Below, one piece after another: positions 1,559 to 54,436 of a stretch of DNA of 64,000 bases. Numbering within the stretch: the first letter of the stretch is position 1; each line of letters begins with the position of its first letter. Source of the stretch: Closterium sp. NIES-65 (taxonomy: Eukaryota; Streptophyta; Zygnematophyceae; Desmidiales; Closteriaceae). The position numbers and the translations under genes were made by a program. The notes beneath the pieces are model-generated. The model searched no databases. It was not told the DNA's origin and saw nothing but the letters and a program-made list of their open reading frames with translations. The stretch lies in assembly GCA_948144175.1 (NCBI GenBank), contig CANXME010002591.1:864501-928500 (forward strand), in the 5' to 3' direction.

Positions 1559-4500
1559 TTACGAGAGCGCATGGACGTCGCGGAAATTTCGGCTTCGCAG
1601 ATACTCGGGGAAGACGGGGTGGTTCTCAATTTTATCCAGGGGGACCCAGTTGTCTTCTGTGGGCGTTCGGTCCTTCCAGCGAATTAGGAACTCTATCCTT
1701 CGGGCTCCCCGAGGGTCGCGGACTCGGTGGCTGAGGATTTTTTCAGGGGTGATGAGTGGTTCGGTTGGGGGACGTGTCATGCTGGCTGGGCGATTTCGTG
1801 GCAGTTGGCTCGTGGATGGGATGTAAGGGCGAAGTAGGCTGACGTGGAATGACGGGCTGACGTACCAGTCAGCAGGGAGGAGGAGGTGGGCGGTGACGGG
1901 TGTGATCATGTGGCTGATGCGAAATGGCCCACAATATCGGGGGCGAAGTTTTGGAGTGATGGGTAGGCGAAGATTCTGAGTGTCGAGTAACACGAGGTCG
2001 TCGGGCTGATAAGTAACGGGTCTGCGATGTCGATCGGTGTTACGTTTAGCGATGATGTTTGATTTTTTGATTGCTTCTGCTGCCCTGGTCCATGCTGCTT
2101 GCAGAATCTCGGCGAACTGTTGTGCTCGTGGGACTGGGTTGTCGGGATTCGGTGTCATGGGTACTGTTGGGTCCTGTCCGTAATTCAAATAAAACGGCGA
2201 CTGTTGCGTCGTGGCTGATGGTGCGTTATTGTATGCGAACTCGATGAGTGGCAGCTGCTGTTCCCACGTATTCGGGTCGTCGCACGTGGCTCGAATCAGC
2301 TGCTCCATGGTCTGATTTGTCCGTTCCGTCTGTCCGTCGGTTTCGGGGTGATAGGATGAACTGAACTGTAAGCGCGTGCCGAACTGCTGCCACAGGTTCC
2401 GCCAGAAGTTGCTGGTAAATTTCGTGTCCCTGTCGCTGATGATCGACGCGGGTATCCCGTGCAGTCGTACGACGGTGGAGATGAATAGTCGGGCGGTTTC
2501 TTCGGCTGTGATGGATTTCCTGCATGCTGCGAAATGAGCCATTTTCGTTAGTCGATCGACGACGACCAGGATCGCGTCATTCCCACTCGCCCCAGCTGGT
2601 AACCCCGTGACGAAGTCCATCGTCACCTGCTGCCAAGCACGCTCTGGAGGCGGGATGGGTTGTAATTGCCCCGCTGGTCGCTTCCTGCTTGACTTCATGA
2701 GCTGGCAAGTGGGACACGATGCCACGTGTCGTTGCACATCGGTCAACATTTCTGGCCAGTAGTAGTACCGCTGCAGCTGCTGCCGTATTTTTTCTACCCC
2801 GAAATGTCCCGAGGTAACTCCGTCGTGTGCTTCCTGTAACAGTAGTTCCCGCAGTAGCGTGTATCCCGGTACCCAGATGCGGTCGGTTCCAGTTTTTACG
2901 TAATAGACTCCTCTTGCCGCTGCGAATTGCTGTGAGTTGCCTCCTGTAAAGAACGGGTCTGTTTGATATCCGTGGGTAAATAGGCCTGTAAGCAGTGGGC
3001 TGGTCTGGGCGAGTAGTATCGCGTGGATCTGGGCAGTGGGGCGGGTCAGTGCGTCGGCGATATTCGATGCTCCTTTTTTGTATCTGACCGTATAGTGAAA
3101 ATTCGACTCGAGGAAATCGAGCCATCGAATATGTCGTGGGTTGAGGTGGGGCTGTGCGCGGAGGTACTGTAGAGATCGGTGGTCTGTCCGTACTGTCACG
3201 TCTGCGCCGGTCAAGTAGCAGCCCCAAACTTTGAATGCATGCACGATCGCGAGCATTTCGCGGTCGTGTATCGGGTAATTTCGCTCAGGCGGATGTAGTT
3301 TGCGTGATTCGTAGGCGATGGGTTGGAGGCCGTTGCCGAAGTCCTGTAACAGTACAGCTCCGATGGCGATGTCACTTGCGTCGGTAACCACTTCGAAAGG
3401 GCGGTGGGGATCAGCGATACGTAGAACGGGTGGTGAACAGAGAACGTTTTTGAGGGCAGAGAAGGCAGCATGCTCTTTCTCCCCCCACGTAAAAGCGACC
3501 CCCTTACGCAGTAAATCAGTTAGTGGGGCTGTTAAACGTGCCATGTCGGGCACGAACCGTCGAACGTAATTAACAAACCCTAAAAAACTCTGCAGTTCCG
3601 TGATGTTCGTCGGGGGCCGCCACGCTTTTACCGTATCCAGCTTCTTTGGGTCAATCTCAACCCCAGCCTCTGAAATGACGTGACCTAAAAACTCTAGCCT
3701 ATCCCTAAAAAACTCGCACTTGGAGCCCTTGGTGAGCAGCCGATGTTCCTCTAAAACCTTAAAAACTGCTTCAAGATCTGCTAAGTGTTGCTGCTTATCC
3801 CGACTGTAAACAAGGATATCGTCGAGGTAAACGATCACGCATTTATCTAAAAGTGGTCTAAACGCCTCGTTCATGGTCATCTGAAAAGTCGCAGGCGCGT
3901 TCGTCAACCCGAAGGGCATTACTGTATACTCGAATGACCCGTACCTAGTCCTAAATGCTGTTTTTGCGCAGTCCGATGGTTCGACCCGAATCTGATGGTA
4001 ACCTCCCCGAAAATCTATTTTCGAAAAGACACGTGCTATTCGCAGTTGGTCAATCAGTTCGTCGGCGCGGGGGATGGGGTATCGCGATTTGACTGTTACC
4101 CGGTTAAGCGCTCGGTAGTCGATGCACATGCGAAACCCTCCGTCTTTTTTCGGTGTGAACAGTATGGGTGCGGCAAACGGTGACGAGCTTGGTCGAATAA
4201 ACTGCTTCTCTAACAGGTAATCTAACTGCTTCCTTAACTCGTCGAGCTCGGGCTGTGTCAGTCGAAATTGCCGCTTTACTGTTGGCTGTGCCCCCGGTTC
4301 TAACTCGATCCTATGGTCGTGCGCTCGCTGAGGTGGCAGTCCCTATGGTAAATCATCCGGAAATATCCCCGGGAACCGTTTCAGTAGTGCCTGTAATTCG
4401 GTCGGTACGGCTGCTAGTAGTTTCTTTAAATCATTCTGCTGCTCGTTTTTTTCTACCACTGCGATATCCACTGCGTACACGTCAGCTCCAGCAGCGACAG

Positions 4501-10112: not shown

Positions 10113-13100
10113 ATGGGGTCTTCTTCAGTACAGCTTTTCACGGGACCTTCGCTTGACGGTGAGTTAAGGCGAAGGTATGTATTTCGTAGGCGATTCGTGC
10201 AAGGCGATGGTGCATGTTTGTATAGATGTCTATCACTCGCAACATGGAATGACGATAATTATTGGGACCTATTAAAAGTGAGGATTGTTGAGCATGTTTG
10301 CGACAACTGGTCACGATATCAAAACTTGGTTGCAATGTGTCACGATGTGTCGTTAACGACGATAGACCAGTATGTTCAATATATCAACGAACAATCTGTT
10401 TGGGGTTCAACGTGTGAAATTAGAGCATTTTGTGAGTTAATGAACAAAACAGTCATAGTATGGCTTAATTCTCGCGAGTGGGTGCAATACGAAAGGTTAG
10501 AGTTCCTATCTCGACATAACCAGATTCATTTGTTGTTATCCAGCAACCATTACACTCTACTTGAAGAGTGTAACGAGGGTGAGATCTGGGGTATCTCGTT
10601 CTTTGCTTCTGAAGTGTCAAGCGTACCTGATAGACGGGTTGAACCAGTAACGCACCACATGCAGCATGAGCATGCGTCATTAGGCGATGATTCGCTTGAG
10701 CAAGCAAGGAGTGCACAATCTTTCGGTAGTGCGGAAGTTTTGGAACAGTCAAACAATCATGACGAACGAGTGGGATCAGTAACTACTGCTCCAGTATATA
10801 GTACGCGTCCAACTTGTATTGACATGGTGCAAGAAGGTGTGGAACTGTCAAACGTTTCCGATAATCAAGTTGAATCAAGAACGTTTCACTTGAAACGCGA
10901 ACACGTTCGATTGAACAATCGATCAAGAGAGCAAACAACCAGTAGGCAACCTGTTCGTATGCACGAAGCGCATGAAGATGAACGGTCAAGGATCTACGGT
11001 GTACGAGTTGAGTCGGTTTCGCCGCGCACGCAGCGTGTGCATACTTCATCCGATATTGTTCCACACAATGGAACCAGGACGATGCCAAATAGTTTTGAAG
11101 ATAAAAATCAAGACGATGAAGTAAGATTCAGCATATCTGACGAACGGATTGATTCCAATGGAGATATTCACTTTTCAATCCCAAACATTGCTCCAAACAG
11201 TGAAGGTCTTGTAGGCATCATCGAAGACGGATCTCGTTTTACCGTACGATTAATGCTAAACTATAGAAAAATGTCTGTTCGCGGATTTCCAACAAATCGA
11301 CATGCTGCCTGGGCACGGCAATACTATATTTTGAAGTATCGAGGGCTCAAGACAAGTCAAAAGCTTCCGTTTGATCGGCGTTATCTCATCAACAATGGGA
11401 AGCTCGTGGACATACCGTTTTTTGACAGGATATACACAATCAATGATCGTGGGAAAAACCCACAAACTACTACTCCAAAGTCATACGTCGGAGTTCATGA
11501 AGGATGCGAGAAATTCGGTTTTCGTATAATGGTGAACGGACGTAACTACATATATGAGAAATGGGATTCTGAAGAATCGGCTGCACGTGCAAGACAATAT
11601 TTTTTGCATTTGGCGTTCGGTCCTAAATGCACTAAAACATTGTCATTCAATGTCGACGAGTTTTATGAGGATGACAAACTTATTCGGAATGAGGAATTAG
11701 ATAACTTGTTTGATGGCCTGGAAGTTCGATACGATGAATCAAACGAGCAAGCTAAAATCGTTGACGAAGCTTTGTCTCGATTTGAAGATGCATCCAGAGA
11801 AGGACCTATACATGGGTGCGAAAGTTGTGATCGGTTATTGTTCAGACGACAATTGTTCAACGTGGAAGACGGCGCATCTACTATTACAAACGTGTGTAAT
11901 AGTTGCAAAATAGCAATTATGGGCAAAGAAACGCCCACGCTTTCTCGGAAAGGAGGAGCACAGCTACCGAAACGACCTCATGATCTTACGGGATTGTCAG
12001 ACTTGGAAGAACGTTTAATTTCACCGCGCGTTGTGTTTTCGAGCATTACGCAAACGCACGTTGGAAAACAATACAAGATACGTGGCGGAGTAGTAAATGT
12101 TCCAGTCAAAGTTGTTGACATGGTAACTACATTACCTCGTCTACCACAAGAAACTCATACTGTTCGTGTGCGTTTTAAACGCAAATTACAGAACGCACAT
12201 AACATTTATGACGACAACGTGAGGCCTGCCAAGATATTACGAGCCTTATCGTTCTTGGAGAAGAAGGATTTGTTTAAACAATTTGGAATCAGACTAGATA
12301 GTGAAAGAATGTCCGAGTTACAACAAGAAATTGATGATATTGATCTTCATAATCAGTTTCTAGCACGCAGCAACTGTGATCAAACGAACGAAGGTACGAC
12401 TGAATTGGACGATGAGGAAGTGGAAGTTGATATAGACGAAGCCGATTTAAACGTCGGAGTTTTGGATACTATTGTTTGTAATGAGCCATTATATCAAAAT
12501 TTGGAGCAGTTCGTTGTTGAAATGGCGCCTGGAGAAAGGTCGCGACCGTTGCCAATTCTAATGGACAAATACGTTGAAGAGTTAGCATTTCCTACCCTAT
12601 TTTGCGGAGAATCTCGATTGCCAAATATCGATTTAGCTTCTTTAAAGTATCGAGATATCGCACAATGGGAACTCCTTCATAAAGATGCGCGTTTTTCTTC
12701 ATGTCCGCAGAACATTTTCTTCAAAATGTTTAAGCTAGAACTAATTCAGATGGACAACGTAGTTGGCACACGTGTGCGACGAGAAATGATCGAGCATGTT
12801 GGTCAATATTCGGCTAAGGATATGCTGAATATTGATACACGTAAATTATTACAAAAAAAAGATACGTTGTTCAACGAATTCAAAAGCCTTCGCATGTCAC
12901 CGCAGTACCTAGAAAACTGTAGAAAAGATTTGTTTGCAATGATACGTCAGTTAGGTCCGCCAACATTCTTTTTGACAATCTCAATGGCCGATACAAAATG
13001 GATCGACCTGCACGTTATTTTATTGGAGCATAACAAGAATACGGGAAATTTAGCTAATCTTTCAAACACCAACATAATTCCACCTTTGGATTTTGAGACC

Positions 13101-13955
13101 ATAGCTTTGCTCGTACGTACATACCCTGTAGTTAGCGCGCGATATTACGTTGAACGAAAAAATGCATTGTTCCGAGAGATTCTAACAAAAAAGACAGGAA
13201 TTTTAGGAGGAGTCGTAGACTATTTTGCTCTCGACGAGTTTCAACATCGAGGTGCCCCTCATACTCATTGTTTAATATGGAGTGAGTTTCTAGCTTGCGA
13301 TGGCACTATTCCTTTAGAAAGGATACTTGCATTTGCCGATAAGCATATATCGTGTCACGCACAAGAACTTGCTGGGGATCCAAAAACAAGCGATCTATTG
13401 AAAGTGCAAACTCATAGTCATACGAGAACGTGCAGAATAAAGAAAAACCGGACCTCGCGTAAATGCCGTTTTGGTATTCCTAAGTATCCACTTCCAAACA
13501 CACTGGTTTTGATGCCATTTGATAAAAAATGCGCGGATGTGGATATGGAAAAACATAGGTCGAGTAGGAAAACCGTAGATGAATTTCTAAACGTTCTGAA
13601 TAAAAATCACTTAATTGAAACCTCTAACTTAACCTTTGCATTGTTTCTAGAGACTGTGCGCCTAACATACGACGATTATATTAGTTGTCTGCGTGTAGGC
13701 CTAAAGAAACGAACACTTTTTCATGCCAAAGATGTACGGGATTGTTACGTCAACAATTTCAATAAACCAATTCTTTCTGTTTGGAGAGGAAATATTGATA
13801 TTCAATTGTGTATCGACCCATATAGTGTGGCAACGTATATTGCTGCATATATGACGAAATCGGGTAAAGGTATAAGTAAGATTATTGAGAATGCAAAAAG
13901 ATTTGCAGCGGTGCAAGGTACGGGTGTTTTATACGTTCTTCGAGACCTTGGAAAT
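10113..13955 (+). CDS. Helentron polyprotein, N-terminal part (OTU, AP2-like, Rep)
   Basis: Initiator protein of a Helentron (Helitron2) rolling-circle transposon; 1281 residues precede the copia insertion. An OTU cysteine-protease domain comes first (GDGACLYRC at about 31-39; His in NHYTLL near 144). Two tandem AP2-like DNA-binding repeats follow (about 365-420; YVGVHEG to LSFN at about 458-515), then a C-x2-C...C-x2-C finger near 568-600. The HUH nuclease motif RGAPHTHCLIW is near 1045-1055 and the paired tyrosines (PYSVATYIAAY) near 1237. The ATG at 10113 is just before the OTU domain. After residue N (codon 13953-13955) the frame enters a copia LTR and stops at 13991; it resumes in phase at 20287. 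Before insertion this was one ORF. Confidence 0.9.
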
Positions 13956-14092
13956 TGTGAAAATAGGAAAACAGGAATGGATGAACTATGAATGAAAGCA
14001 GTACAAATATGAAACCCTAACTGGGTTGTACCCCCTATGGGATACCCCACTACAGCCTACACAGCAGTATAAGCTATATATATGTTCTGACA
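13956..14092 (-). repeat. copia-1 3' LTR, 137 bp
   Basis: Minus strand TGTCAGAAC...TTTTCACA. No difference seen from 20145-20281. Preceded in element sense by the purine tract ending ATGGGGGTG. Confidence 0.93.
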
Positions 14093-14299
14093 CACCCCCA
14101 TAGGCAAAGTGGGGGAGAACAAGGGGTCACAAGACCAGTCAAGCAAGACAAAGCAAAGCTCAGGGTGGATCACAAAGTCACCACACAGTCCGAGCACAAG
14201 AGCAAGGCCAAAGGCCAGTTCACAAGCAAGAGTACAGACATATATATAAAGCTAGACAAGCAAGAGCAGGTATATATATATATCACAGTACAAGTGAAG

Positions 14300-17200
14300 T
14301 CAAGAGGAGAGCAAGTGAGGCAAGACAGGCACAAGACCCAGCTGGGTGCAGAAGCGCTGATGGTCACAAGGCGCAAGTGCCTTGGTGAACACATCAGCAG
14401 TGTTGGCCTCAGAGGCCACGTACGCAAGTCGCAACTGACCACGCTGCTGCAGCTCACGAGCAAGGAAGTAGCGGAGAGCAATGTGCTTCGTTCTGTGCTC
14501 CAAGCGCTGCTCTCGACACAAGGCCAGCATAGCCTTGTTGTCTACGTACAGCACTGGAGGAGAACGAGGCGGCTCTCCAAGGTCAGTCAGCAGGTAGGTG
14601 AGCCAGCGAAGCTCCTGTGCAGCCATGGCCCCGGCGTAGATCTCAGCCTCACAACTGGAGCCGAGAACCGAAGACGAGCGAGTAGACCGCCACGAGACAG
14701 AGCCGGAACCAAGGCTGAAGGTGTAACCCTGTGACGACCGCTGCGTAGCCTGGTCGTCAGCCCAAGAAGCGTCCGCGTGGCCGGTAAGGACCACTGGACT
14801 CCGCCCTCCAAGCACTAGCCCCATGCCTGACGTACTGCACAGGTAGCGCAATACCCTCTTCGCTGCAGCCATGTGCTCCGGTCTGTGTCTCCCAGGAGCA
14901 ACATAGCGTGCAAGAATGCTCAGAGGGTATGCAAGGTCAGGTCGTGTGCAGGTCATCAGGTACATGAGGCAGCCAACAAGCTCCGCATACGGACCACTCG
15001 ACTCTACGGACTCATCCGAAGGCAGAGCTGAGAGTGAGTGGCGAGTAGGCAGAGGAGTGGCCTGAGGCGAGGAGTACGTGAAGCCGAAGCGCTGAAGGAC
15101 CTGCTGCACCGTGTGTGACTGAGTCAAGGTAATGGTGCGGCGTGCTCTGTCCCGAGTGATCTGCAAGCCAAGGTAGCTGCGCAGTTCACCCAGGTCTGTG
15201 CACGTGTGTCTCTTCAACAGCTCGGACTTCACGTAGGCGAGTCCAGCAGTGTCCGCTGTGGCAAAGACCAGGTCGTCGACGTACACGAGGATGTAGAACG
15301 GCGGCAGGGAGGTGTCGGTGCGAAGAAACAGCGACGGGTCAGCAGTAGAAGGAGCAAACCCAAGAGCCGCAAGCGTAGTCCTCAGTGTGTCGTGCCACTC
15401 ACGCGGTGCCTGGCGGAGACCGTAGACTGGCCGTCGGAGGCTCCACTGGGTGCCAGGAGGGAAAGTCCCAGTGAAGCCAGGTGGACGGCGAAGCCAGATC
15501 TCCTCGTGCAGGCTACCCTGCAAGAACGCAGTGCTGAAGTCGAGAGAGTGAAGCTCGTAGTCGCGCTGAGCGGCTATGTGCAGCAGCACCCAAAGAGTAG
15601 TCATCTTCGGGGTGGGAGAGAAGGTCTGAAAGTAGTCAACTCCCTGCCGCTGACTGAAGCCACGAGCAACGTACCGTGCCTTGAAGACAGGTGGAGAGCC
15701 CGGCGGCCGCTTCACCCTAAAGATCCACATGCCACTGACGATGTTCGCCCCAGGAGGGGGAACCGCGTCAACGTAGGTGCCTGTGGACTTCCAGGAAGCC
15801 ATCTCTGCATCCATAGCTGCCTGCCACTGAGAGGAGTAGGGACCCTCTACGGCCTCCGCGTAAGAACGCGGAGTCGGGATGTCTAGTGCATCCGGGTCTC
15901 CCTCAGGGGCAAGCAGTACAGACGCGAGATGAGGTGAAGCAGCCGCTAGACACTGTAACTCCTCCTGCCTGTCCTCTAGGACGTCCGTGCCAAGAGCACA
16001 CTCACCCCCGACGGACGGAGGACAGACAGACACAGACTCAGCAACAAGACTAGCAGCGTAGTCGAGACGACAGCGAGCAGCAAAGTCGACGAGCTCAGCG
16101 ACTAGAGCAGACGCAGCAGTGGACTCAAAGGAGGGGTCAGTGACGACAGTAGCAAGCAGACGCGTGACAGTGGGACTGGCAGCACGAAGAGAGTCCGACT
16201 CAGGGTCCGCAAGCGCAGGAAGAGAGGACTCAGGAGGAGAAGGCAAAGGGGCACGCAGAGGAGCAGTGGACGGACGTAAAGACATCCGGTGCGTGCCAGG
16301 GACAGGAGGAGGACGCTGACGCGAACTGCGACCACTAGCGCGAGCAGCACGAACAGGCGACGCGGGACGAGACGCAGGCTCACGACGCTCAGCAAGACCT
16401 CCAGTAGGACCAGTGTAAGGAGAGGGAGCAGGCAGTGGAGAGGAAGGCTCCAGTAGGGGCTGCGACTGGACAGGCGGTGGACCCTCTACTGGAGGAGAAA
16501 GACCAAGAACCTGCTGCAGGAGCGGAACGAAGTACGGCCGAGGCCGCGCGGCAGCTCCAGACTCAGCAGGGACAGCACCAGCACCCTCAGCGACAGCACC
16601 AGCGCCACCCACACCTCCAGCGGCAGGACCAACAGCAGTAGGCTCAGCACCAACGCCCTCAGCAGCTCCAGCTCCAGGAGGACCCGCAGGTCCAGCAGCT
16701 CCGGGACCGGCAGCACCCGCACCCTCGACGGTCGAAGAAGCTCCAGCCCCAGCTCCAGCAGCACCTCCAGACTCAGCAGCACGCCTCCAGCGGCGAGCGA
16801 ACCACTCGCGCAGCTCCTGTGGAGAGAGGGGCTCCCGGCGAGACGCAGCAGCAGGAGAAACCCCAGGCTCAGCAGCTCCAGACGCAGCACCCCCAGGCGC
16901 AGCAGCTCCCAGCTCAGCACCCCCAGGCTCAGCAGCTCCCGACCCAGCACCCCCAGACCCAGCACCTCCAGGCACAGCACCCCCCGGCTCAGCACCCCCA
17001 GGCTCCGCACCCTCCGCAGTAGCACCCTCAGGCCCAGCACCCCCAGCAGTAGCACCCCCAGGCTCAGCACCCCCGCGCACAGCACCCCCAGAGTCAGCAC
17101 CCCCAGGCTCAGCACCCGCAGCAGCAAGTACCTGACCCGACGCAGCCACCTGACCAGACGCAGGGACAGGAGGAGACTCAACGGTCAGGGTGTAGAGACT

Positions 17201-19081
17201 CGACCCCGGCCGACGTGAGAACGTGGCCAGGTGTCGGCCTGTGCGAGCCTCCGTGCAGTGGGTCACCCTCTGACTCGCAGGAGTGAACTGGTGAACACCC
17301 CCATCCTGCAGGTCCGCTCCACTCACCAAGTTCGTAGAGAACGAGGGAAGGTACAGACCCGACAGGGTGCCCGAAGGGGCAGCCGGACACGGGAGGACAG
17401 TGGAGAAGTGAGACAGGACAGGACCCCCAGAGGGGTCAGCAAGGGAGACCGCAACCGGCCTGGCGAGCGGCGAAAGGGTAGTGCGGTCTCGAAAGAAGGA
17501 GCGAGAAGCTCCGGAGTCAAGTGTGAAAGTGAGGGAAGACGAGGACGACGCAGTACCTGAGAGCGCAGTCTCACCAGTACCTGAGAGCGCAGATGCACTG
17601 GCACCTAGAGCAGCAGCCTCACAAGCACCTAGCGCAGCAGTACCAATGCCCGGGTCGGGCTGAAAACACCGGTAACCCTCATTCTCCTCACTATAATCCA
17701 CAACATACATAGCAGTAAGGATAGCATCAAAATCAAGATCAAAGATCGCTACACCAGCCCTGAGAAGCTCATCCCAGCGAGGGATCTCACTAGCCCCAGG
17801 GAACTGCTGACGCCAAGCGTCCGTCAGGCGGCCAAAGCAGCGCTGGGTGGCGTGGGCACCCCCACACTGCTCACCCGCGCGGTCGCCGGAACGAAGAACG
17901 TAGGTGCAGGGACCAGTACCCCCACCCCTCTGACGCCCAGCGTACCACTCACGAAGCTGCTGAGGCGAAGGGATGTCCCGCGAGCGCTGCTGCTGCTGAC
18001 GGTGCGAGCGCTGGCCACCACCACCGCCGCTACGCTGCTGGGTACCACCTCGACCAGCTCCACCTCCTCCACCACTACTGCCTCCTCCGCTGCCGCCTCC
18101 ACTGCCTCCACCTCCGCCGCCTCCACCCCCGCCGCTGCCTCCACCACCACCGCTGGCACCACCACCACCGTCTCCGCCGCTGCTGCCGCCACCACCACCA
18201 CCACCCCCGCCACTAGCCCCGCCGCCACCCCCACTCCCTCCGCCGCCACCGCCGCCACCGCCACCGCCCCCTCCAGCTCCACCCGCGCCCTTGCCCCCCT
18301 TGCCCTTGCTGGAGTGACGTCTCCCACTAGGGGCAGACGCCGCGCCGACCGACTCAAGACCAAGCAGGTCGGCAGCAGCAGCAGAGGCAACAGAGGGCAG
18401 CAAGGGGGAAGGAGAGCACCCCTCAAAGATGGGGGTGCGTGGGTCACCACGAGAAGCACCTACAGCGACGATGCTCTTCTCCGCTGCAAGGAGGGCCTTC
18501 TCGAGGAGGTCGACGGTGAGAGTGGTGGGACAGACTGCGAGAAAGTGGTCCCTGACGACGCGAAGGGAGTCAGGGAGGCGTGCGACTACGTAGTAGAGAG
18601 CGATGTACATGGGGGGGGGGTTCTTAGCGCAGAACTCAGCAGGAAGGGCGGCGCGGTAGCGAGTGTCACTAGTGCGGAGGTGCGTAATGAGGTCAGCGAC
18701 AGTGGGAAAGGCAGAGAGGTCAGGAAAGAGGTAGGGAAGCATGAGACGGCTCAGTGCAGCAGTGGCAGGGGAGGAGTAGCGCGCAACTACAGCGTCGTAC
18801 AAGGTCTGAGCACTCTTGTACTGACTAAAGTGCGCACGCTCAGAGGTAGGGAGGTGGCGACGCACAGCAAGACGTGCAGCAGCATCGCGGGTGGCCCACT
18901 TAGAGCGGACAGCGGGATCAGCATCAGCAGCAGGGGCAGGAGAGGCGCCAGAGGTGAGGTCAAAGAGAGAAAGGTCATCAGCCCTGTCGCACTGTAAGAA
19001 CAGCTGCAGGTCGTCTAACCAGACCTCAAAATCAATGGCGCGACCCTCAGCGTCAAAAGCTAGGACACTAGGGGTAGCCAT
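14300..19081 (-). CDS. copia-1 gag-pol ORF lacking integrase
   Basis: Open for about 1593 residues from MATPSVLAFD at 19081; an ATG eight codons upstream is also in frame, but copia-2 and copia-4 start at the equivalent of 19081. Gag is followed by a glycine tract of roughly 100 residues, then an unusual zinc-type motif C-X13-C-X3-H-X4-C (CTYV...CGGAHATQRC). Protease has LDSGAS. Next come Gly/Glu/Pro repeats (GAEPGG), then RT with YGLRQAPREW and YVDDL, and RNase H (HADASWADD, SCEAEIYAG). The segment from HHRLGHP through the D-D-E core is absent: sequence jumps at 17117-17126 (CGCAGCAGCA) from the post-protease region to the GAEPGG linker. Compared with copia-3 the loss is 1125 nt, so the frame is kept. 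Confidence 0.92.
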   Translation of the reverse strand: MATPSVLAFDAEGRAIDFEVWLDDLQLFLQCDRADDLSLFDLTSGASPAPAADADPAVRSKWATRDAAARLAVRRHLPTSERAHFSQYKSAQTLYDAVVARYSSPATAALSRLMLPYLFPDLSAFPTVADLITHLRTSDTRYRAALPAEFCAKNPPPMYIALYYVVARLPDSLRVVRDHFLAVCPTTLTVDLLEKALLAAEKSIVAVGASRGDPRTPIFEGCSPSPLLPSVASAAAADLLGLESVGAASAPSGRRHSSKGKGGKGAGGAGGGGGGGGGGGGGSGGGGGASGGGGGGGGGSSGGDGGGGASGGGGGSGGGGGGGGGGSGGGSGGGSSGGGGGAGRGGTQQRSGGGGGQRSHRQQQQRSRDIPSPQQLREWYAGRQRGGGTGPCTYVLRSGDRAGEQCGGAHATQRCFGRLTDAWRQQFPGASEIPRWDELLRAGVAIFDLDFDAILTAMYVVDYSEENEGYRCFQPDPGIGTAALGACEAAALGASASALSGTGETALSGTASSSSSLTFTLDSGASRSFFRDRTTLSPLARPVAVSLADPSGGPVLSHFSTVLPCPAAPSGTLSGLYLPSFSTNLVSGADLQDGGVHQFTPASQRVTHCTEARTGRHLATFSRRPGSSLYTLTVESPPVPASGQVAASGQVLAAAGAEPGGADSGGAVRGGAEPGGATAGGAGPEGATAEGAEPGGAEPGGAVPGGAGSGGAGSGAAEPGGAELGAAAPGGAASGAAEPGVSPAAASRREPLSPQELREWFARRWRRAAESGGAAGAGAGASSTVEGAGAAGPGAAGPAGPPGAGAAEGVGAEPTAVGPAAGGVGGAGAVAEGAGAVPAESGAAARPRPYFVPLLQQVLGLSPPVEGPPPVQSQPLLEPSSPLPAPSPYTGPTGGLAERREPASRPASPVRAARASGRSSRQRPPPVPGTHRMSLRPSTAPLRAPLPSPPESSLPALADPESDSLRAASPTVTRLLATVVTDPSFESTAASALVAELVDFAARCRLDYAASLVAESVSVCPPSVGGECALGTDVLEDRQEELQCLAAASPHLASVLLAPEGDPDALDIPTPRSYAEAVEGPYSSQWQAAMDAEMASWKSTGTYVDAVPPPGANIVSGMWIFRVKRPPGSPPVFKARYVARGFSQRQGVDYFQTFSPTPKMTTLWVLLHIAAQRDYELHSLDFSTAFLQGSLHEEIWLRRPPGFTGTFPPGTQWSLRRPVYGLRQAPREWHDTLRTTLAALGFAPSTADPSLFLRTDTSLPPFYILVYVDDLVFATADTAGLAYVKSELLKRHTCTDLGELRSYLGLQITRDRARRTITLTQSHTVQQVLQRFGFTYSSPQATPLPTRHSLSALPSDESVESSGPYAELVGCLMYLMTCTRPDLAYPLSILARYVAPGRHRPEHMAAAKRVLRYLCSTSGMGLVLGGRSPVVLTGHADASWADDQATQRSSQGYTFSLGSGSVSWRSTRSSSVLGSSCEAEIYAGAMAAQELRWLTYLLTDLGEPPRSPPVLYVDNKAMLALCREQRLEHRTKHIALRYFLARELQQRGQLRLAYVASEANTADVFTKALAPCDHQRFCTQLGLVPVLPHLLSS

Positions 19082-19105
19082 GGTGACGACAGCGACGCAG
19101 TGCAA

Positions 19106-20130
19106 GCAGTAGGGAAAGAGCTCGCAGTGTCAGTGGGACAGTGCTCACCAGGCAGGGCAGGTCGTGCAGTCAGCAGAAAGGCGGCTCAGCGACCGGGCGG
19201 CTCGGGTGCACAGCTGCTCGGCTCCCGGGCGGCTCGGCGGCTGGGCGGCTCGGGCGCAGGGCGGCTCGGCTCCCGGGCGGCTCGGCGGCTGGGCGGCTCG
19301 GGTGCAGGGCGGCTCGGCTCCCGGGCGGCTCGGCGGCAGGGCGGCTCGGGTCCCGGGCGGCTCGGCTGCTGGGGCGGCTCGGCCGGGAGATGCAGCGTCG
19401 GGCCGGCAGGTGCAGCGTCGGGCCGGCAGGTGCAGCGGCGGGCCGGCAGGTGCAAGTGGCGGGCCGTAAGAGGCGGCGGGTCGATGGGTGCAGCGGCGGG
19501 CCGGTAGGTGCAGCAGCGGGCCGGCAGGAGCAGCGGCAGGCCGGCAGGGTGCAGCGGCGGGCCGGCAGGAGCAGCGACGGGCCGGCAGGGTGCAGCGGCG
19601 GGCCGTAGAGTGCAGCGGCGGGGCCGTCGGCAGCAGAGGCGGGGCCGCGTCAGAGGAGGCGGCGTGGCCGCGTCAGGGGAGGCGGCGGGGCCGCGTCAAT
19701 GGAGGCGGCGGGGCCGCGTCAGGGGAGGCGGCGGAGTCGCGTCAGGGGAGGCGGCGGGGCCTCGTCAGGGGAGGCGGCGGGGCCGCGTCAGGGGAGGCGG
19801 CGGGGCCGCGTCAAGGGAGGCGGCGGGGCCGCGTCAAGGGAGGCGGCAGGGCCGCGTCAGGGGAGGCGGTGGGGCCGCGTCAGGGGAGGCGGCGAGGCCG
19901 CGTCAAGGGAGGCGGCGGGGCCGCGTCAAGGGAGGCGGCGGGGCCGCGTTAAAAGAGGCGGCGGGGCCGCGTCAAGGGAGGCGGCTGGGCCGCGTCAGGG
20001 GAGGCGGCAAAGCCGCGTCAGAGGAGGCGGCGGGGCCGGGAGTGAAAAGGCGACCCGAGGGGTCGCTAAAAAAAAAGGGCGCGCCTCGGGGCGCGCGTCG
20101 GTGGGCCCAGACAACGGTCCTAAGGTAGGA
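19106..20130 (-). repeat. copia-1 leader with three repeat blocks
   Basis: Between primer site and gag: about 19190-19380 carries GGCGGCTCGG-based units, 19390-19620 carries GCAGCGGCGGGCCGGCAG units, and 19625-20040 carries some 17 copies of a unit of about 24 bp (GAGGCGGCGGGGCCGCGTCA). All three frames of one strand are open by composition only. The same leader type precedes gag in copia-3. Confidence 0.8.
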
Positions 20131-20144
20131 CCCGCTCTATACCA
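20131..20144 (-). promoter_or_regulatory. copia-1 primer binding site
   Basis: Minus strand TGGTATAGAGCGGG abuts the 5' LTR. It matches the initiator-Met site TGGTATCAGAGC with one base missing; copia-2 has the same variant at 36245. Confidence 0.75.
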
Positions 20145-20281
20145 TGTGAAAATAGGAAAACAGGAATGGATGAACTATGAATGAAAGCAGTACAAATATG
20201 AAACCCTAACTGGGTTGTACCCCCTATGGGATACCCCACTACAGCCTACACAGCAGTATAAGCTATATATATGTTCTGACA
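20145..20281 (-). repeat. copia-1 5' LTR, 137 bp
   Basis: Matches 13956-14092 at every base I compared. Followed by the target duplication GAAAT, after which the Helentron frame resumes. Confidence 0.93.
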
Positions 20282-20286
20282 GAAAT

Positions 20287-23094
20287 TACATATTAAACAC
20301 TCAAGAAATTAGCGCACAAGAAGCTATTTATCTTATTTTGAGTCTTCCTTACAAAAAAACTACTCGTGGTTTTGTATTTATTAATACAAATCATCCACAC
20401 AAACGATTGTTATTATTGAAGACAAAGGCAGAATTGGAAGGCTTGGATCCTCAATCGACAGACATCTTCACACCATATGCCTTATTGGATCGATATATGA
20501 ATCGACCAACAGCTATGGAGGCTATTTGTTTCGCAGATTTCTCATCTGTATATGAAGAAACAAGTGATAAAACTCGTATCGGTCCTGATATTTCTTCCAA
20601 GAGACGGTTCTATCGCAAGCGAGCAAGAAAGAAGATTATTCGATACGTCAACTACCATAGTGATATCGATAACGATAACTATATGCGTGAACAAATATTA
20701 TTGTTCGTTCCTTTTCGTCAAGAAGCTTGTGAATCTAATGACGTTGTCCGAATCTATGCGGCAAACAATGATATTATTTTTACCAAGAGGAATGAATATT
20801 CGATGAATGGAGATACGTGGATACGTGCACTGGAGAACGCTATTGGTGTGGATGACGACGTCGACGATCCCGATAACGAAACGTTACCAAATGAAGACGT
20901 TGATATCGGCGTCGAACTTGGGTTGGACAAATTTGTCCGATCTACCGATATTTTTCATTCGGTGGCTGCAAACGAAAGCGATTATCTATCGATGGAACGC
21001 ATGTTGAATGCAGAACAACGTGCAGTTGCCGATCACATCGTACATGGAGTGCGTCGTTCATTTCAATATGGACCTTTGTCCATATTCGTTAGCGGGGGTG
21101 CTGGCGTCGGAAAGTCCGTTTTGATTAGAACGGTTCACGATCGACTAATTCGAATATTTCATGCGCAGATCCATACAAATTTCAATACGATCAAAGTGTT
21201 AAAAATAGCTCCCTCAGGAGTTGCAGCCTTTCAGATTAAGGGTTATACAATTCATAATGCTTTAATGATTCCAGTCGTGCAGAATCGTCGTATAAAGAAA
21301 TTAACTTCGGACAGGTTAAATACTTTAAGATCGAGACTTGGAGACGTAAAAGTTGTTATTGTCGACGAAATATCAATGGTTGGGAAAAACACCTTCGAAT
21401 GGATAGATTTTAGGCTTCGTGAGCTTACAAATAACGCGAACGTTCCTTTCGGGGGTTTGCACATGGTCTTTGTTGGAGATTTTTTCCAACTACCTCCAGT
21501 GCGTGATATACATTGTTTCGACGATCATACAAATCAATCTTCAATATGTGATTTGAATATTTGGAGACGTGTACAACTTGTAGAACTTACGACGATCATG
21601 CGGCAACGCGAAGAGGGAAGATTTGCTGAATTGTTAAACCGTTTGCGCGAAGGGGCCCAAACTCCTATGGACATACTGTTATTACATGACCGGCAAGTTG
21701 ATATTCCTTCAGTAGAGACAAGCTTGCAACATTTATGTTGCACTAATAAAGCCATCGACTCGTTTAACCACGCTGTTTTCTCATCTTCGTTGGAAGAGAA
21801 ATACGCAGTCCCAGCGTTGGATTGTGCGTTGTTCGGGAATGACCAATCCAGGAAAGATAAACCGATTACCCCAGATGGGTTTGCGACAACTTCATCACAT
21901 GGGTTATGTTCGGTTCTTGAGCTTTTTATCAGCTCGCGTGTGCACATGGTTTGTAATGTGGATACGTCAGACGGGCTTGCTAATGGCACACCTGGCATTG
22001 TAGTTCGTTTTTCATTGAATGCACACAATACGGTGGAAGTGATATGGGTCCAATTTGATGATGAAGCTGTTGGCAGTAATATGCGTAGAAAATCTCGACC
22101 GTTGTTTTCTAAGACTCTGGGGGTAAAACCATCTTGGACGCCTATTCAACGAATAGAGAAGACATTCTCGGTAAATTCTCGCTATGACATGATTTCTCGA
22201 ATGCAGTTTCCATTACGACCAAGTAATGCGATAAGCTTTCACCGAAGCCAAGGTGCTACTTTTGAAAGTGGAGTCATACATTTTGAATCCAAAGTTTTTC
22301 CTCAAGGAGCATATGTTGCTTTGAGTCGATTTCGCAGTCCTTCTCGATTGTTCCTTCGAAGCTTTTCAGAAGCATGCATTAAAACCGATTCTCGTGTAGT
22401 AGCGGAAATGTGCCGTCTACGTAAGAGACCCCTTATTTTGGATCCAATACCGATTGGTGAGATCATTCAACAATCATCATTGATTAAGTTCGCATTTCAA
22501 AATGTAAGAAGTTTTCGAGGACATTACAGAGATGTTAATATCAACAATCTTGGTGGATTTGATTTTATGATTCTATTCGAGACACACTTGGGCGAAAATG
22601 ATCAGTTACCAAATTTGACAAACGACATATTTAATATTGTTCGTTTTGATTGCCCATCTGGGGGGATTGTTTTATATCATCATATTCCAATCAGAAACGT
22701 ACAGTATGTAGAAAATTCAAAAGTCGAATTATTAACATTTATCATCAACGTCAATGATGAAGATGTAGTTATTACGGGTTGCTATCGTAATCCAACCAAT
22801 CAACGTAATCATAACGTTCTTTTTGATATGATCACATCGATCATCGCTAAGCATACAAATCGTAACATGATTTTTTTGGGCGATTTCAATGTCGATATGA
22901 ATGCTGGTACGCATCCCAAATATCGGTGTTTTTTTGAACTCCATGGTTTTACGCAATTCATTGTTGATCCTACGACGGTGAATGCTACACTTATCGATCA
23001 TATTTGGAGCAATTGTTTCAAAACACGTCTAAAAGTATATGTTGGTGAAACATATTTTTCTGATCATTTTCCTGTGTACGCTGTTGTTGAATAA
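20287..23094 (+). CDS. Helentron polyprotein, C-terminal part (PIF1 helicase, endonuclease)
   Basis: About 935 residues continuing the Helentron frame after the copia insertion and its target duplication. The segment begins YILNTQEISAQEA, typical of the Rep-helicase junction. A PIF1-family SF1 helicase follows: Walker A GGAGVGKS near 21095, Walker B VVIVDEIS near 21353, FVGDFFQLPP near 21470, and SFHRSQGATF...YVALSRF near 22230-22330. The C-terminus (from about 22480) is an endonuclease/exonuclease/phosphatase domain (QNVRSF, FETHLG, GDFNVDM, DHIWSN, SDHFPV), as in Helentrons. The apparent ORF start at 20215 lies inside the LTR and is not real. Stop at 23092-23094. Confidence 0.9.
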   Translation, partial: YILNTQEISAQEAIYLILSLPYKKTTRGFVFINTNHPHKRLLLLKTKAELEGLDPQSTDIFTPYALLDRYMNRPTAMEAICFADFSSVYEETSDKTRIGPDISSKRRFYRKRARKKIIRYVNYHSDIDNDNYMREQILLFVPFRQEACESNDVVRIYAANNDIIFTKRNEYSMNGDTWIRALENAIGVDDDVDDPDNETLPNEDVDIGVELGLDKFVRSTDIFHSVAANESDYLSMERMLNAEQRAVADHIVHGVRRSFQYGPLSIFVSGGAGVGKSVLIRTVHDRLIRIFHAQIHTNFNTIKVLKIAPSGVAAFQIKGYTIHNALMIPVVQNRRIKKLTSDRLNTLRSRLGDVKVVIVDEISMVGKNTFEWIDFRLRELTNNANVPFGGLHMVFVGDFFQLPPVRDIHCFDDHTNQSSICDLNIWRRVQLVELTTIMRQREEGRFAELLNRLREGAQTPMDILLLHDRQVDIPSVETSLQHLCCTNKAIDSFNHAVFSSSLEEKYAVPALDCALFGNDQSRKDKPITPDGFATTSSHGLCSVLELFISSRVHMVCNVDTSDGLANGTPGIVVRFSLNAHNTVEVIWVQFDDEAVGSNMRRKSRPLFSKTLGVKPSWTPIQRIEKTFSVNSRYDMISRMQFPLRPSNAISFHRSQGATFESGVIHFESKVFPQGAYVALSRFRSPSRLFLRSFSEACIKTDSRVVAEMCRLRKRPLILDPIPIGEIIQQSSLIKFAFQNVRSFRGHYRDVNINNLGGFDFMILFETHLGENDQLPNLTNDIFNIVRFDCPSGGIVLYHHIPIRNVQYVENSKVELLTFIINVNDEDVVITGCYRNPTNQRNHNVLFDMITSIIAKHTNRNMIFLGDFNVDMNAGTHPKYRCFFELHGFTQFIVDPTTVNATLIDHIWSNCFKTRLKVYVGETYFSDHFPVYAVVE

Positions 23095-36118: not shown

Positions 36119-36244
36119 TGTCAAACATTATATATGTTCTTGTAGTTGTTTAGGCTACAGTGGGTTAGCTTATAGGGGGTACACATTCCTAGTTTTTCAT
36201 ACTTGTACTCATTTCACTGTTAGTTCATTCATTCTTGTTCAACA
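36119..36244 (+). repeat. copia-2 5' LTR, 126 bp
   Basis: TGTCAAACAT...GTTCAACA. Differs from the 3' copy at three sites (TTCTTG/TTGTTG, GCTTAT/GCCTAT, AGGGGG/AGAGGG). Confidence 0.93.
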
Positions 36245-36289
36245 TGGTATAGAGCAGGTCCTTCCTAGGACCGATTTTTTTTTTAGGGC

Positions 36290-36990
36290 CCACCACTACC
36301 TACCTACCTACCTGCGCCCTAGGGCGCCTCGGCTTTCACGCCCCTAGAGGCCCCGTCGGCCCCACGCTCTCGCACCTAGAGGCCTCAGTCGGCCCCGCGC
36401 TCGCTTTTAGAGGCCCCGAATCGGCCCCGCGCTTACCCCTAGAGGCCCGCGTCGGCCCCGCGCTCGTCCTTAACGGCCACGAATCGGCCCCGCGCTTACC
36501 CCTAGAGGCCCGCGTTGGCCCCGCGCTCGTCCCTTCCGGCCCCGATCGGCCCCGCGCTCGTCCCTCACGGCCCCGATAGGCCCCGCGCTCGCCCTTAGAG
36601 GCCCACGTCGGCCCCGCGCTCGTCCCTTACGGCCCCGATTGGCCCCGCGCTCGTCCCTCACGGCCCCGATAGGCCCCGCGCTCGCCCTTAGCACCCACGT
36701 CGGCCCCGCGCTCGTCCCTCACGGCCCCACCCGCTCCCCGCGCTCTCCCTTAGCGGCCCCGAGCCGACCAGAGCCGCCCAGCCCTAACGGAACCGAGCCG
36801 CCCGACCCGAGCCGCCAGCCCTAACCGACCCGAGCCGCCCGAACCGAGCCGCCCGAACCGAGCCGCCCGAACCGAGCCGCGCCGCCCGACCCGAGCCGCG
36901 CCGCCCTACCTATACCGAGCCGCGCCGCCCTACCTGTACCGAGCCGCGCTGCCCTACCTACCCTACTGCTCCTACTGCTTTTCCTACTGC
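36290..36990 (+). repeat. copia-2 leader repeats
   Basis: GC-rich units CGGCCCCGCGCTCGTCCCT with GAGGCCC variants, passing into CCGAGCCGCCCGA units near the gag ATG. Same position as in the other copia elements, different unit. Confidence 0.75.
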
Positions 36991-36997
36991 TGCTACC

Positions 36998-39900
36998 ATG
37001 GCTAGCCCTCCTGTGCTAGCCTTCGATGCTGAGGGCCGCCCAGTGAAGTTCGACACCTGGCTTGATGACCTACACCTCTTCCTACAGCTCACTGCCAAGG
37101 AAGGCATCTCGCTGTACGATCATGCCTTAGGCCACGCTACTGCTCCTGGTGCTACTGCTGACAGCACTGCCCGCTCACAGTGGCAGACTCGTGACGCCCA
37201 TACTCGCTTCGCTATTCGCAACTCTCTGCCGATAGATGAGCGCGAGCACTTTGGGCAGCACAAGACTGCACAGGCACTATACACTGCTGTCGTTGCCCGC
37301 TACTCCTCACCGGCCTCTGCCGCTCTAGGCCGTCTCTCTCTTCCCTACCTGTTCCCCGACTTAGCTTCCTTCCACACTGTCGCTGATCTCATTACCCACC
37401 TCCGCACTAGTGAGGCTCGCTTCCGCGCCGCTATGCCTGATGAGTTCCTTGCCAAGAACCCACCCCCGCTCTGGCTCACTCTCTACCACCTAGTCACGCG
37501 CCTCCCTGACACTCTGCGTGCAGTCAGGGACCACTTCCTAGCTCGCTGCCCCACCGAGCTCACCATTGCCCTCCTCGAGAAGGAAGTGCTTGCAGCTGAG
37601 GCTAGCATAGTCGCTGTAGGTGCCTCTCGCGGTGACCCCCGTACCCCGTTCTTTGAGGGGTGTTCTCCCTCCCCCCTTCTTCCCTCTGTCGCCTCTGCTG
37701 CTGCTGTCGACCTCCTTGGTGCTGAGAAGGTCGGGACTGCGTCTGCTTCGAGTGGGCGCCGCAGCGGCAAGGGCAAGGGGGGCAAGGGCGGTGGTGGTGA
37801 CAGCGGGGGTGGCAGTGGTGGGGGAGGTGGTGGTGGCGGGGGGGGTGGCGCGGGTGGGGGAGGTGGCAGCAGTGGGGGGGGTGGCGGCAGTGACGGGGGA
37901 GGTGGCCGGGGCGGAGGAGGTGGTGGGGGTGGCACTGGACGAGGCAGCGGCCGGGGTTGGGGTGGTCGAGGAGGTGGTAGCGGCGATGGTGGTCGTGGAG
38001 GCACTGGCGATGGCCAGGGCCAGCAGCACACTCCGTCGCCCCAGGAGGTCCGTGAGTGGTACTCTCAGCACGGGGGGGGGGGGGGGGGTGGCCTTAGCTG
38101 CACGTACGTCATTCGCACTGGTGACCGCACTGGCCAGCCGTGCGGGGGACCGCACGCCACACAGCGTTGCTTCGCTCGTCTGAACGACGCTTGGCGTGTT
38201 CAGTTCCCTCAGGCCACTGAGCTGCCCCGCTGGGTTGATCTCCTGAAGAAGGGGATTGATATTTATGCTCTAGACTTTGATGCTATTCTCACTGCCATGT
38301 ATGTGATGTCTACTAGTGGAGAGGGTGCTGAGTACCTGAGTGTCCCGCCCGACCCGGGCATTAGGACTAGTGCGTCTGCCGCTCCAGGTACTCGCGTGTC
38401 CGCTACCCCAGGTGCTGGTGAGGCTGCTGCTCTAGGTGCGTGTACGTGTGCCCCCCCTAGTACTATGTCGACTGCAGCACTGCACACCTTCACACTGGAT
38501 TCAGGTGCCTCTCGCTGTTTCTTTCGTGACCGCACTGCCCTTGAGCCCCTTGCTCAACCAGTTGCTGTCTCCCTCGCTGACCCCTTTGGGGGTCCGGTCC
38601 TTTCGACCTCCTCCACTGTCCTTCCCTGTCCTGCGGTCCCGTCGGGCACACTGTCAGGTCTCCACCTCCCCTCGTTCTCTACGAACTTGGTGGCAGGTTG
38701 TGCACTACAGGACGCGGGTGTTCACCAGTTCACCCCTGCCTACGAGCGTGTCACACACTGCACGTGTGCCCGTACAGGCCGCCACTTGGCTACCTTCACC
38801 CGACAGCCGGGGTCGGATCTGTACACACTGACTACTGCCCCCCCTCAAGTCGCTGCGTCTGCGTCTGCGTCCGCGTCAGGTCAGCTGTCCGCCCCCTGCT
38901 CGTGTCGCTCTCTAGCACACGAGACTGTCCTCTGGCACCACCGACTGGGCCACCCGTCTGTGCAGCGCCTTCGTGCCATGCACTCCCGGTACCTTGTCTC
39001 TGGTCTTCCCAGAGTCCTCCCTCCCCTCCCACCCTCGCCTGCTCCTCCCTGTCTTCCCTGTGTTGAGGGGCGGCAGCGCGCCGCTCCTCACTCCTCCTCG
39101 TTTCCCCCGACGACTGCTCCTTTGCAGACGCTCCACATGGACGTGTGGGGCCCAGCCCGCGTCCGTGGTCAGGGTCAGGAGAGGTACTTCCTGATCCTTG
39201 TTGACGACTACTCGCGCTACACCACGGTCTTCCCCTTGCGCACCAAGGGTGAGGTCCCTGATGTTTTGATCCCTTGGATCCGCAGAGCTCGTCTCCAGCT
39301 CAGCGAGCGATTCCGCTCGGACTTTCCTGTCCTGCGCTTGCACTCTGACAGAGGTGGTGATTTCTCCTCCGACCTCTTGGCAGCCTACTGTGCTGAGCAC
39401 GGCATTGAGCAGTCGTTCACGCTTCCGGCCTCTCCACAGCAGAATGGAGTTGCGGAGCGCCGCATTGGCCTGGTCATGGAGGTCGCTCGTACCTCCTTGA
39501 TCCATGCGGCTGCCCCCCACTTTCTGTGGCCGTTTGCGGTCCGGTACGCTGCGCATCAGCTCAACCTCTGGCCCCGTGTCTCCTTGCCGGAGACCTCGCC
39601 CACACTGCTGTGGACGGGGGAGGTTGGCGATGCGTCGCGTTTCCGGGTCTGGGGATCTCGAGCCTTTGTCCGCGATTCGTCTGCGGACAAGCTCTCCTCT
39701 CGTGCTTTTCCCTGCGTCTTCCTCGGCTTTGTTCCGGACGCGCCTGGTTGGCAGTTTTACCACGCCACCTCGCGCCGGGTCTTGCCCTCTCAGGACGTCA
39801 CTTTTGACGAGTCTGTCCCCTACTACCGCCTCTTCCCCTACCGCACTGCCCCGCTCCCACCCCCGCCTCTCTTCCTCGCGCCAGGTGCTGCTGACGTAGA

Positions 39901-42900: not shown

Positions 42901-43045
42901 GCGTGGTCAGTTGCGGCTTGCGTACGTGGCCTCTGAGGCCAACACTGCTGATGTCTTCACCAAGGCACTTCCGCCTTGTGATCATTAGCGCTGCTGTACC
43001 CAGCTGGGTCTTGTGTCTATCTTTCCTCACTTGCTCTCCTCTTGA
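36998..43045 (+). pseudogene. copia-2 gag-pol, two in-frame TAG codons
   Basis: About 2015 codons from MASPPVLAFD. Gag, Gly-rich tract, zinc-type motif (CTYV...CGGPHATQRC), protease LDSGAS, GAG-pre-integrase HHRLGHP, integrase D-D-E (MDVWGP, HSDRGGDF, QQNGVAERR), GAEPGGADSGG repeats, RT YVDDL near 42061, and RNase H. TAG at 41552-41554 replaces a Trp found in copia-1 and copia-3 (EMASWKS); TAG at 42986-42988 replaces Gln and removes about 19 residues. Both fit C-to-T change at a CHG site. No frameshift. The only copy here with an intact integrase stretch in one open segment. Confidence 0.93.
40001..40260 (+). repeat. 30-bp coding repeats in the copia-2 linker
   Basis: GGTGCTGAGCCTGGGGGTGC plus TGACTCTGGG repeated about eight times, encoding GAEPGGADSG between integrase and RT. 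Part of the ORF; a disordered linker kept in all copies here. Confidence 0.85.
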
Positions 43046-43264
43046 CTCTCTTTGTACTGTTACATATATATATATCACTGCTCTTGCTTGTTTAGTTATA
43101 TATATATATATGTACTCCTGCATGTGAACTGGCCTTGTGGCCTTGCACTTGTGCTCGGATTGTGTGGTGACGTTGTGATCCACCCTGAGCTTGCTTTGCT
43201 TTGCTTTGCTTTGCTTGACTGGTCTTGTGACCCCTAGTTCTCCCCCACTTCGCCTATGGGGGTG

Positions 43265-43390
43265 TGTCAAACATTATATATGTTGTTGTAGTTGTTTAGG
43301 CTACAGTGGGTTAGCCTATAGAGGGTACACATTCCTAGTTTTTCATACTTGTACTCATTTCACTGTTAGTTCATTCATTCTTGTTCAACA
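43265..43390 (+). repeat. copia-2 3' LTR, 126 bp
   Basis: Preceded by CCTATGGGGGTG and followed by the target duplication CCCGG. Confidence 0.93.
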
Positions 43391-48173: not shown

Positions 48174-48302
48174 TGTGAAGTAAAGAAAACAGGAATGGAA
48201 TGACTAAGGAAAGATTGGGTACAAATACAACCCTAGAAAACCTGTACCCCATATGTGCTACCCCACTATAGCCTACAGCAACTATGTCATATAAATCTGA
48301 CA
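48174..48302 (-). repeat. copia-3 3' LTR, 129 bp
   Basis: Minus strand TGTCAGATTTATATGACATA to ...ACTTCACA. Closely resembles the copia-4 5' LTR (62313-62438) rather than the copia-1 LTR. Confidence 0.88.
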
Positions 48303-48508
48303 CACCCCCATAGGCAAAGTGGGGGAGAACAAGGGGTCACAAGACCAGTCAAGCAAAGCAAAGCAAGCTCAGGGTGGATCACAAAGTCACCACACAGTCT
48401 GAGCACAAGAGTAGGGCCAGAGGCCAGTTCACATGCAGGAGTACAGACATATATATAAAACTAGACAAGCAAGAGCAGGCATATATATATGTCACAGTAC
48501 AAGTGAAG

Positions 48509-54412: not shown

Positions 54413-54436
54413 GGCGACGACAGCGACGGAGTGCAA

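Follow-up and report, generated by a model that had tools for sequence, protein, structure and literature searches.

We analysed a 64,000-nt stretch of the Closterium sp. NIES-65 genome (positions 864,501 to 928,500 of contig CANXME010002591.1; hereafter the window), focusing on a copia retrotransposon at 13956-20281 on the minus strand that lacks integrase. We find that this element is probably a one-off copy with an internal deletion, belonging to a large and recently active Closterium copia family, and that the deletion most likely arose during reverse transcription. It is most likely not the founder of a parasitic subfamily. Papers are cited by PubMed Central number.

An integrase-less element inserted in a Helitron-type gene

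The element has the hallmarks of Ty1/copia: long terminal repeats (LTRs) with TG...CA ends, a 5-bp target duplication and a copia-type reverse transcriptase (RT; RVT_2). The group's order of protease, integrase and RT is seen through its relatives, with integrase 3' of the protease motif in sibling copies and 5' of RT in the relative copia-2; the studied copy itself has no integrase. Its LTRs are identical at 137/137 bp, and its open reading frame (ORF) at 14300-19105 (minus strand) runs for 1601 codons with zero stops. Pfam places RVT_2 at residues 1118-1352, gives a sub-threshold copia gag match (E = 0.085) and finds no integrase domain in the 1601-codon ORF. An autonomous copia element would encode integrase, and this one does not.

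The insertion interrupts a Helitron-type ORF. With a single GAAAT retained, the host ORF reads through 2216 aa, codon 1281 being the point of insertion, and the predicted 44-nt empty site occurs 15 times in the genome with at most 3 mismatches, 13 of them exact. Because the restored ORF is open and the empty site is found 15 times, insertion with target duplication is beyond reasonable doubt. The initial annotation had reported identical LTRs, a perfect target duplication and an open ORF, all of which hold. The features are as follows.

13951-13955, no strand: target site duplication GAAAT, left copy
20282-20286, no strand: target site duplication GAAAT, right copy
20145-20281, minus strand: 5' LTR, 137 bp, TGTCAG...TTCACA
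13956-14092, minus strand: 3' LTR, identical to the 5' LTR
20131-20144, minus strand: primer binding site TGGTATAGAGCGGG, immediately 3' of the 5' LTR, at the same position in family copies
14093-14103, minus strand: polypurine-rich tract CTATGGGGGTG, 5' of the 3' LTR
19180-20038, minus strand: 5' leader with GC-rich tandem arrays (16/48-, 20- and 23-bp units)
14300-19105, minus strand: open gag-protease-RT frame, 1601 codons, first ATG at 19081
15050-15754, minus strand: reverse transcriptase domain RVT_2 (PF07727), from Pfam
17117-17126, minus strand: deletion junction at a 10-nt direct repeat (CGCAGCAGCA on the plus strand), 1125 nt absent
16861-17121, minus strand: 15-bp tandem array coding a GGAEP-like pentapeptide repeat, adjoining the junction
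10113-13955, plus strand: host Helitron-type ORF 5' of the insertion, with OTU, DUF6570 and Helitron_like_N
20287-23094, plus strand: host Helitron-type ORF 3' of the insertion, with PIF1 helicase and Exo_endo_phos

We take the primer binding site to be a candidate initiator-tRNA-Met site by its apparent likeness to such a sequence. The host gene as a whole (10113-23094, plus strand) carries an OTU protease, Helitron_like_N, PIF1 and a C-terminal Exo_endo_phos, and is presumably Helentron-like.

An in-frame deletion between 10-nt repeats

The 10-mer CGCAGCAGCA occurs once in the studied copy (17117) and twice, 1125 nt apart, in copia-3 (51326 and 52451), another copia element of the window. 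The missing 1125 nt comprise GAG-pre-integrase, the integrase core and SH3; in the sibling copy C1050, the segment absent here codes gag_pre-integrs, rve and SH3_retrovirus. The initial annotation had deduced the in-frame loss of GAG-pre-integrase and integrase at the 10-bp repeat by comparison with copia-3, and the siblings agree with both the content and the extent of the loss. As a yardstick copia-3 is poor, with three in-frame stops, a missing 5' end and an LTR only ~70% like the studied one (67.8% in a comparison whose slice was a few bases off). Given this decay, we took other genome copies as reference, and the 1125-nt gap is the same.

An LTR search in which 40 of 1995 candidates were scored yielded rows with 11 other LTR pairs, which we used for comparison. 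Two of these copies, C2369 and C2033, share flanks and represent one insertion, so that the 11 paired copies stand for 10 insertions. In 10 of the 11, and also in C1050 and C2063, a distance of 1125 nt separates the two 10-mers; in the 11th, one 10-mer match is lost, yet the 1125-nt gap in the alignment is unchanged. The segment is thus present in 13 of 13 other approximately full-length loci read (11 insertions). Since the 1125-nt distance is kept across sibling copies, the spacing of CGCAGCAGCA in the studied deletion is not a matter of chance.

That the frame survived the deletion calls for no selection: copia-3 has 54 exact direct repeats of at least 10 nt at spacings of 300-3000 nt, and 37 of the 54 spacings are divisible by three, so short in-phase repeats are common. 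We also considered that the element might be a copy of a spliced transcript. In the copia-3 sequence, the ends of the missing stretch offer no GT-AG in any of 11 registers, and canonical splicing is excluded as the cause.

The junction occurs once in the genome

The initial annotation proposed that the element was probably mobilised in trans, and named in advance a genome search for copies sharing its junction as the test for an amplifying integrase-minus subfamily. In 874 Mb there is a single exact match to the 20-nt junction, and a 41-mer across it, allowing up to 3 mismatches, also finds one place, against 1399 exact matches (687 + 712) to a 38-nt LTR core. Near-junctions matching the 20-mer with 2-3 mismatches (397 matches, of which the first 100 were listed) were gone with the 41-mer.

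The first 95 nt of the studied LTR have 8 exact occurrences in the genome: two in the studied copy, two each in C1050 and C2063, and one each in C1813 and C2061, which were viewed around the LTR only. Shared flanks and a shared duplication, AAGCC, show C1050 and C2063 to be one insertion; it is the sole other paired insertion with an identical LTR start, and it carries integrase. At the protein level, the listed matches are Closterium proteins, and none of the 345 (the best 120 per search, with thousands beyond) runs unbroken over the junction. This test is weak, in that gene models are fragmentary and the studied element's own ORF is absent from the listed matches. Because the junction is single, the LTR-sharing insertion has integrase and no listed protein spans the junction unbroken, there is no sign of an amplified integrase-minus subfamily in this assembly. 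Of the two features that would mark an element of the BARE2, LARD or TR-GAG type, integrase-bearing partners with matching LTR and primer site are present in the same genome, while several insertions with the same defect were not found in this one assembly.

Two further candidate signals were discarded. The junction 20-mer has one match in IMG/VR, L001. This sequence looks like a phage contig and gave no BLAST alignment with the window above the chosen cut-off; we put the hit down to chance. Base 14 (A) of the LTR is not private to the studied copy, given that the 26-nt prefix is found 263 times and the 95-nt start 8 times. Judging by titles and abstract openings, we found no literature on Closterium retrotransposons that treats this copia family.

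Other copies of the family carry their own deletions

To place the deletion in context, we sampled the first 100 of the 1399 LTR-core places, which by spacing form 45 same-strand pairs and 10 singles. One apparent deleted pair, C81 (5871-nt spacing), was rejected because its two LTRs belong to neighbouring elements, 3' in one and 5' in the other, leaving 44 LTR pairs. Large internal deletions are found in 7 of the 44 (C106a, C106b, C106c, C128a, C128b, C139a and C139b), with losses of 0.4-6.5 kb per pair; their LTR spacings range from 879 to 6657 nt, where the median is 7245 nt. An eighth deleted copy, C43, lacks 230 nt in the protease region. Internal sequence was read for the seven, C43, C53 and C103, and smaller deletions among the 44 may have been missed.

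All eight deleted copies have perfect 5-bp target duplications, and their breakpoints differ from one another and from that of the studied copy. Their LTRs are nearly identical, with 0 or 1 difference in the six scored deleted pairs and 0 in C43; most scored LTR pairs of the family are likewise identical or one position apart. By offsets, the whole integrase segment is absent in C106b, C128a, C139a and C139b, the C-terminal part of integrase including SH3 is gone in C106c, and C106a has lost RT sequence while retaining its integrase domains. C128b has two deletions, with offsets 3041-3594 replaced by 231 nt of unassigned sequence. The junction overlap is 10 nt in C128a, as in the studied copy; in C43, 13 nt are shared between the two BLAST pieces, and the remaining deleted copies have junctions with short overlap or filler. 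The C106c junction, the one of the seven so tested, is also unique in the genome.

Some further observations concern these copies. The seven deleted pairs are recorded as L072, L073, L074, L075, L076, L077 and L078, each with a perfect target duplication; L073 and L077 spell the primer site TGGTATCAGAGC in place of TGGTATAGAGC. The smallest, with its 879-nt LTR spacing, is of a size resembling TRIM elements. Differences in the leader arrays (19180-20038) may explain part of the ~7.0-7.6 kb spread among full-length pairs. Finally, two 2.35-kb deletion copies, C106 and C441, are nearly equal in length, suggestive of an amplified derivative; their flanks are the same, and we rejected this reading in favour of one insertion in a duplicated segment. 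The duplicated loci seen here fit the widespread duplications described for NIES-65, the samples of which are haploid (PMC10407611).

A proposed origin in reverse transcription

In retroviruses and Ty elements, the particle already contains integrase when reverse transcription begins, and this enzyme was translated from other RNA molecules. In the mechanism we propose, an undeleted family transcript would have been reverse-transcribed inside a virus-like particle, where the growing DNA strand could slip between the 10-nt repeat copies, on the same RNA or a co-packaged one, and skip 1125 nt. The particle's integrase, which we infer to have been translated from undeleted parental or co-packaged transcripts, would then have inserted the product into the Helitron gene and made the 5-bp duplication. 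The result would be dead on arrival as an autonomous element, with LTRs, primer site and open gag, protease and RT frames in place and integrase gone. Since integrase would come from the particle, no helper-parasite relation is needed if the deletion arose in reverse transcription. The earlier suggestion that another element supplied the integrase therefore survives in a weak sense only: if the deletion came first, the copy was integrated by an enzyme not encoded in its own DNA, and a separate helper element is not needed. The components of this mechanism have precedents, in that template switching by retroviral RT produces deletions between direct repeats (PMC3187697), template switching has been inferred in plant LTR elements (PMC1950507) and dead-on-arrival insertions are known in wheat (PMC9744471).

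Several signs of a dead-on-arrival insertion are present, namely an internal defect, perfect LTRs and duplication, a short-repeat breakpoint and a unique junction. Coding substitutions private to the studied copy relative to 11 others are 10 synonymous and 5 non-synonymous, against a neutral expectation of 70-73% non-synonymous (P = 0.0016-0.0036); five private changes fall in the stretch comparable with C1050/C2063 and are absent there too. From this ratio, the lineage kept its coding capacity until late, which is what a loss of integrase in the last cycle would predict. An integrase-less lineage could also be under selection for gag and RT. The initial annotation had called the element young. 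Recent insertion is supported, and the identity of 137-bp LTRs is in itself weak evidence for youth: at 7e-9 substitutions per site per year the 95% age bound is 1.56 million years. The bound is ~0.84 million years at 1.3e-8, a rate quoted in PMC9744471.

Weighing the alternatives

We consider it unlikely, though more probable than the other two alternatives, that a full-length copy landed in the Helitron gene and that slippage or illegitimate recombination at the 10-nt repeats cut out 1125 nt later. Such an event would leave a junction unique in the genome, as observed; microhomology-flanked post-insertion deletions are known in plant LTR elements (PMC1940013), and such events may take place in this genome as well, since C42 and C95 seem to be truncated or interrupted at one LTR. 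Yet the rice events average 29 bp at 0.095 per substitution, a rate that by the account of the same study missed larger rearrangements (PMC1940013), whereas the losses here span 0.4-6.5 kb in 7 of 44 pairs, and the 6 of these that were scored show 0-1 LTR differences. The position of the deletions also speaks against later loss. Under random placement, about 37 deletions reaching one LTR are expected alongside the 7 internal ones, and 2 to 4 are seen; the probability that all seven would fall between the LTRs is 9.5e-5. Among the 10 single LTRs, 3 have a normal partner bearing one changed base, 1 is a solo LTR with a duplication, 1 is at a contig end, 1 is at the end of the list, C42 and C95 are truncated or interrupted at the other end, and C41 and C92 were left without assignment. 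Reverse transcription products without both ends do not integrate, and deletions that keep both ends are therefore what reverse transcription should yield. The initial annotation held that a unique junction would make later deletion or misassembly likelier; the pattern in 7 of 44 pairs is instead best fitted by deletion during reverse transcription.

An integrase-minus lineage moved in trans over several rounds, as for BARE2, TR-GAG or LARD, is very improbable and strongly disfavoured for NIES-65. In its favour, the studied copy keeps its LTRs and primer site together with open gag, protease and RT frames, copies with the integrase segment exist, and truncated copies were apparently amplified in two rice families (PMC1940013). 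Against it stand the single genomic junction, the integrase of the only other paired insertion with the same LTR start and the 0 of 345 listed proteins contiguous across the junction. Least probable of all is an assembly error joining two copies at the repeat. The family is large, with near-identical copies and tandem repeats next to the junction, which would favour such a mistake; however, this is a PacBio assembly with a read N50 of 30 kb (PMC10407611), set against a 6.3-kb element in a 5.28-Mb contig, there is no N within the window, either side of the junction carries changes that were seen in none of the 11 compared copies, and the insertion is consistent with its target duplication and with the empty site.

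Several points weigh against our preferred explanation of deletion during reverse transcription. For the studied copy alone, a 1.1-kb deletion would be internal by chance with P ~0.71, and deletion before and after integration are not separable; that deletion preceded integration is supported by the family pattern and not provable for this copy. The family argument rests on larger deletions and a simple random-placement model, and on a sample of the first 100 of 1399 places, with the seven deleted pairs, C43, C53 and C103 read inside, in which C41 and C92 may hide further one-ended losses. A second list, based on a 26-nt LTR prefix that is common to other LTR types, is poorer in short pairs. 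It contains 36 pairs under 10 kb, and 4 of these are under 6.8 kb: two represent a single insertion within a duplicated segment, and C1413 (4527) and C532 (6750) are short by spacing. The substitution test covers 11 to 13 of roughly 700 copies, and some changes may be shared with others. Finally, the repeat is only 10 nt long, far below the repeat lengths of retroviral assays.

Other elements in the window

A chromovirus-type gypsy ORF at 54762-57044 (plus strand) encodes protease, RVT_1, a Tf2-like SH3 and a chromodomain in an open frame. Its RT YLDDI motif is followed directly by the late part of integrase, and Pfam finds neither RNase H nor an rve core in this ORF. Because of this jump and these absences, we count it as a putative second in-frame integrase-deleted element of the window. 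The copia-3 element (48178-54780, minus strand) appears nested in the gypsy element, the sequence of which resumes within the copia-3 leader; its 3' LTR is present and its 5' LTR missing. Next to its divergent LTR, the adjacent 600 nt are 95.5% alike between copia-3 and the studied copy, and the LTR mismatch may reflect LTR exchange or very fast LTR change. A third copia relative at 36119-43390 (plus strand) has 126-bp LTRs that are 97.6% alike and a target duplication CCCGG, with gag_pre-integrs, rve and SH3 in one ORF and RVT_2 in a second.

Known systems and significance

The case has parallels in other systems. The wheat families Angela, Cereba and Wilma include insertions of autonomous families that were defective on landing, as is proposed for the studied copy; there the defect counted is in-frame stops, whereas the studied copy has a clean in-frame loss of 1125 nt at a repeat (PMC9744471). 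Template-switch LTR elements (PMC1950507) and retroviral direct-repeat deletions (PMC3187697) involve abnormal strand transfer, the origin proposed here, with a target duplication and matching LTRs as signs. However, the Triticeae cases are enlarged three-LTR complexes (PMC1950507), unlike the studied deletion, and the retroviral assays used repeats much longer than the one here (PMC3187697). BARE2, TR-GAG and other non-autonomous plant LTR elements also have complete LTRs and some proteins and need partners, but they are recognised kinds, with TR-GAG movement seen (PMC8704663), while the studied defect is a single genomic copy. Truncated copies of rice Hopi/Osr27 and Osr8 are deleted LTR-element copies as well; subsets of those copies share the deleted region (PMC1940013), in contrast to the unique junction described here.

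Taken alone, the studied element is an ordinary defective copy, and its value is as an entry point to a family worth a census. In 2007, the rice study assumed truncated insertions to be rare and was aware of no described example, and its DNA-loss estimate assumed full-length insertions (PMC1940013). We put forward, as a tentative proposal that may well need revision, that about one in six to one in ten new insertions of the Closterium family are born with a large internal deletion, and that reverse transcription, not decay, supplies most of its short derivatives. The rate is based on the 7 of 44 pairs above and on a second sample in which 3 of 35 distinct pairs are short by spacing, mostly unread. 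The 1399 LTR-core matches and near-identical LTR pairs let birth deletion be told from later decay. If the proposal is true, this family, which by LTR count has roughly 700 copies and whose target duplications are readable, would provide a direct natural measure of template-switch deletion in a retrotransposon.

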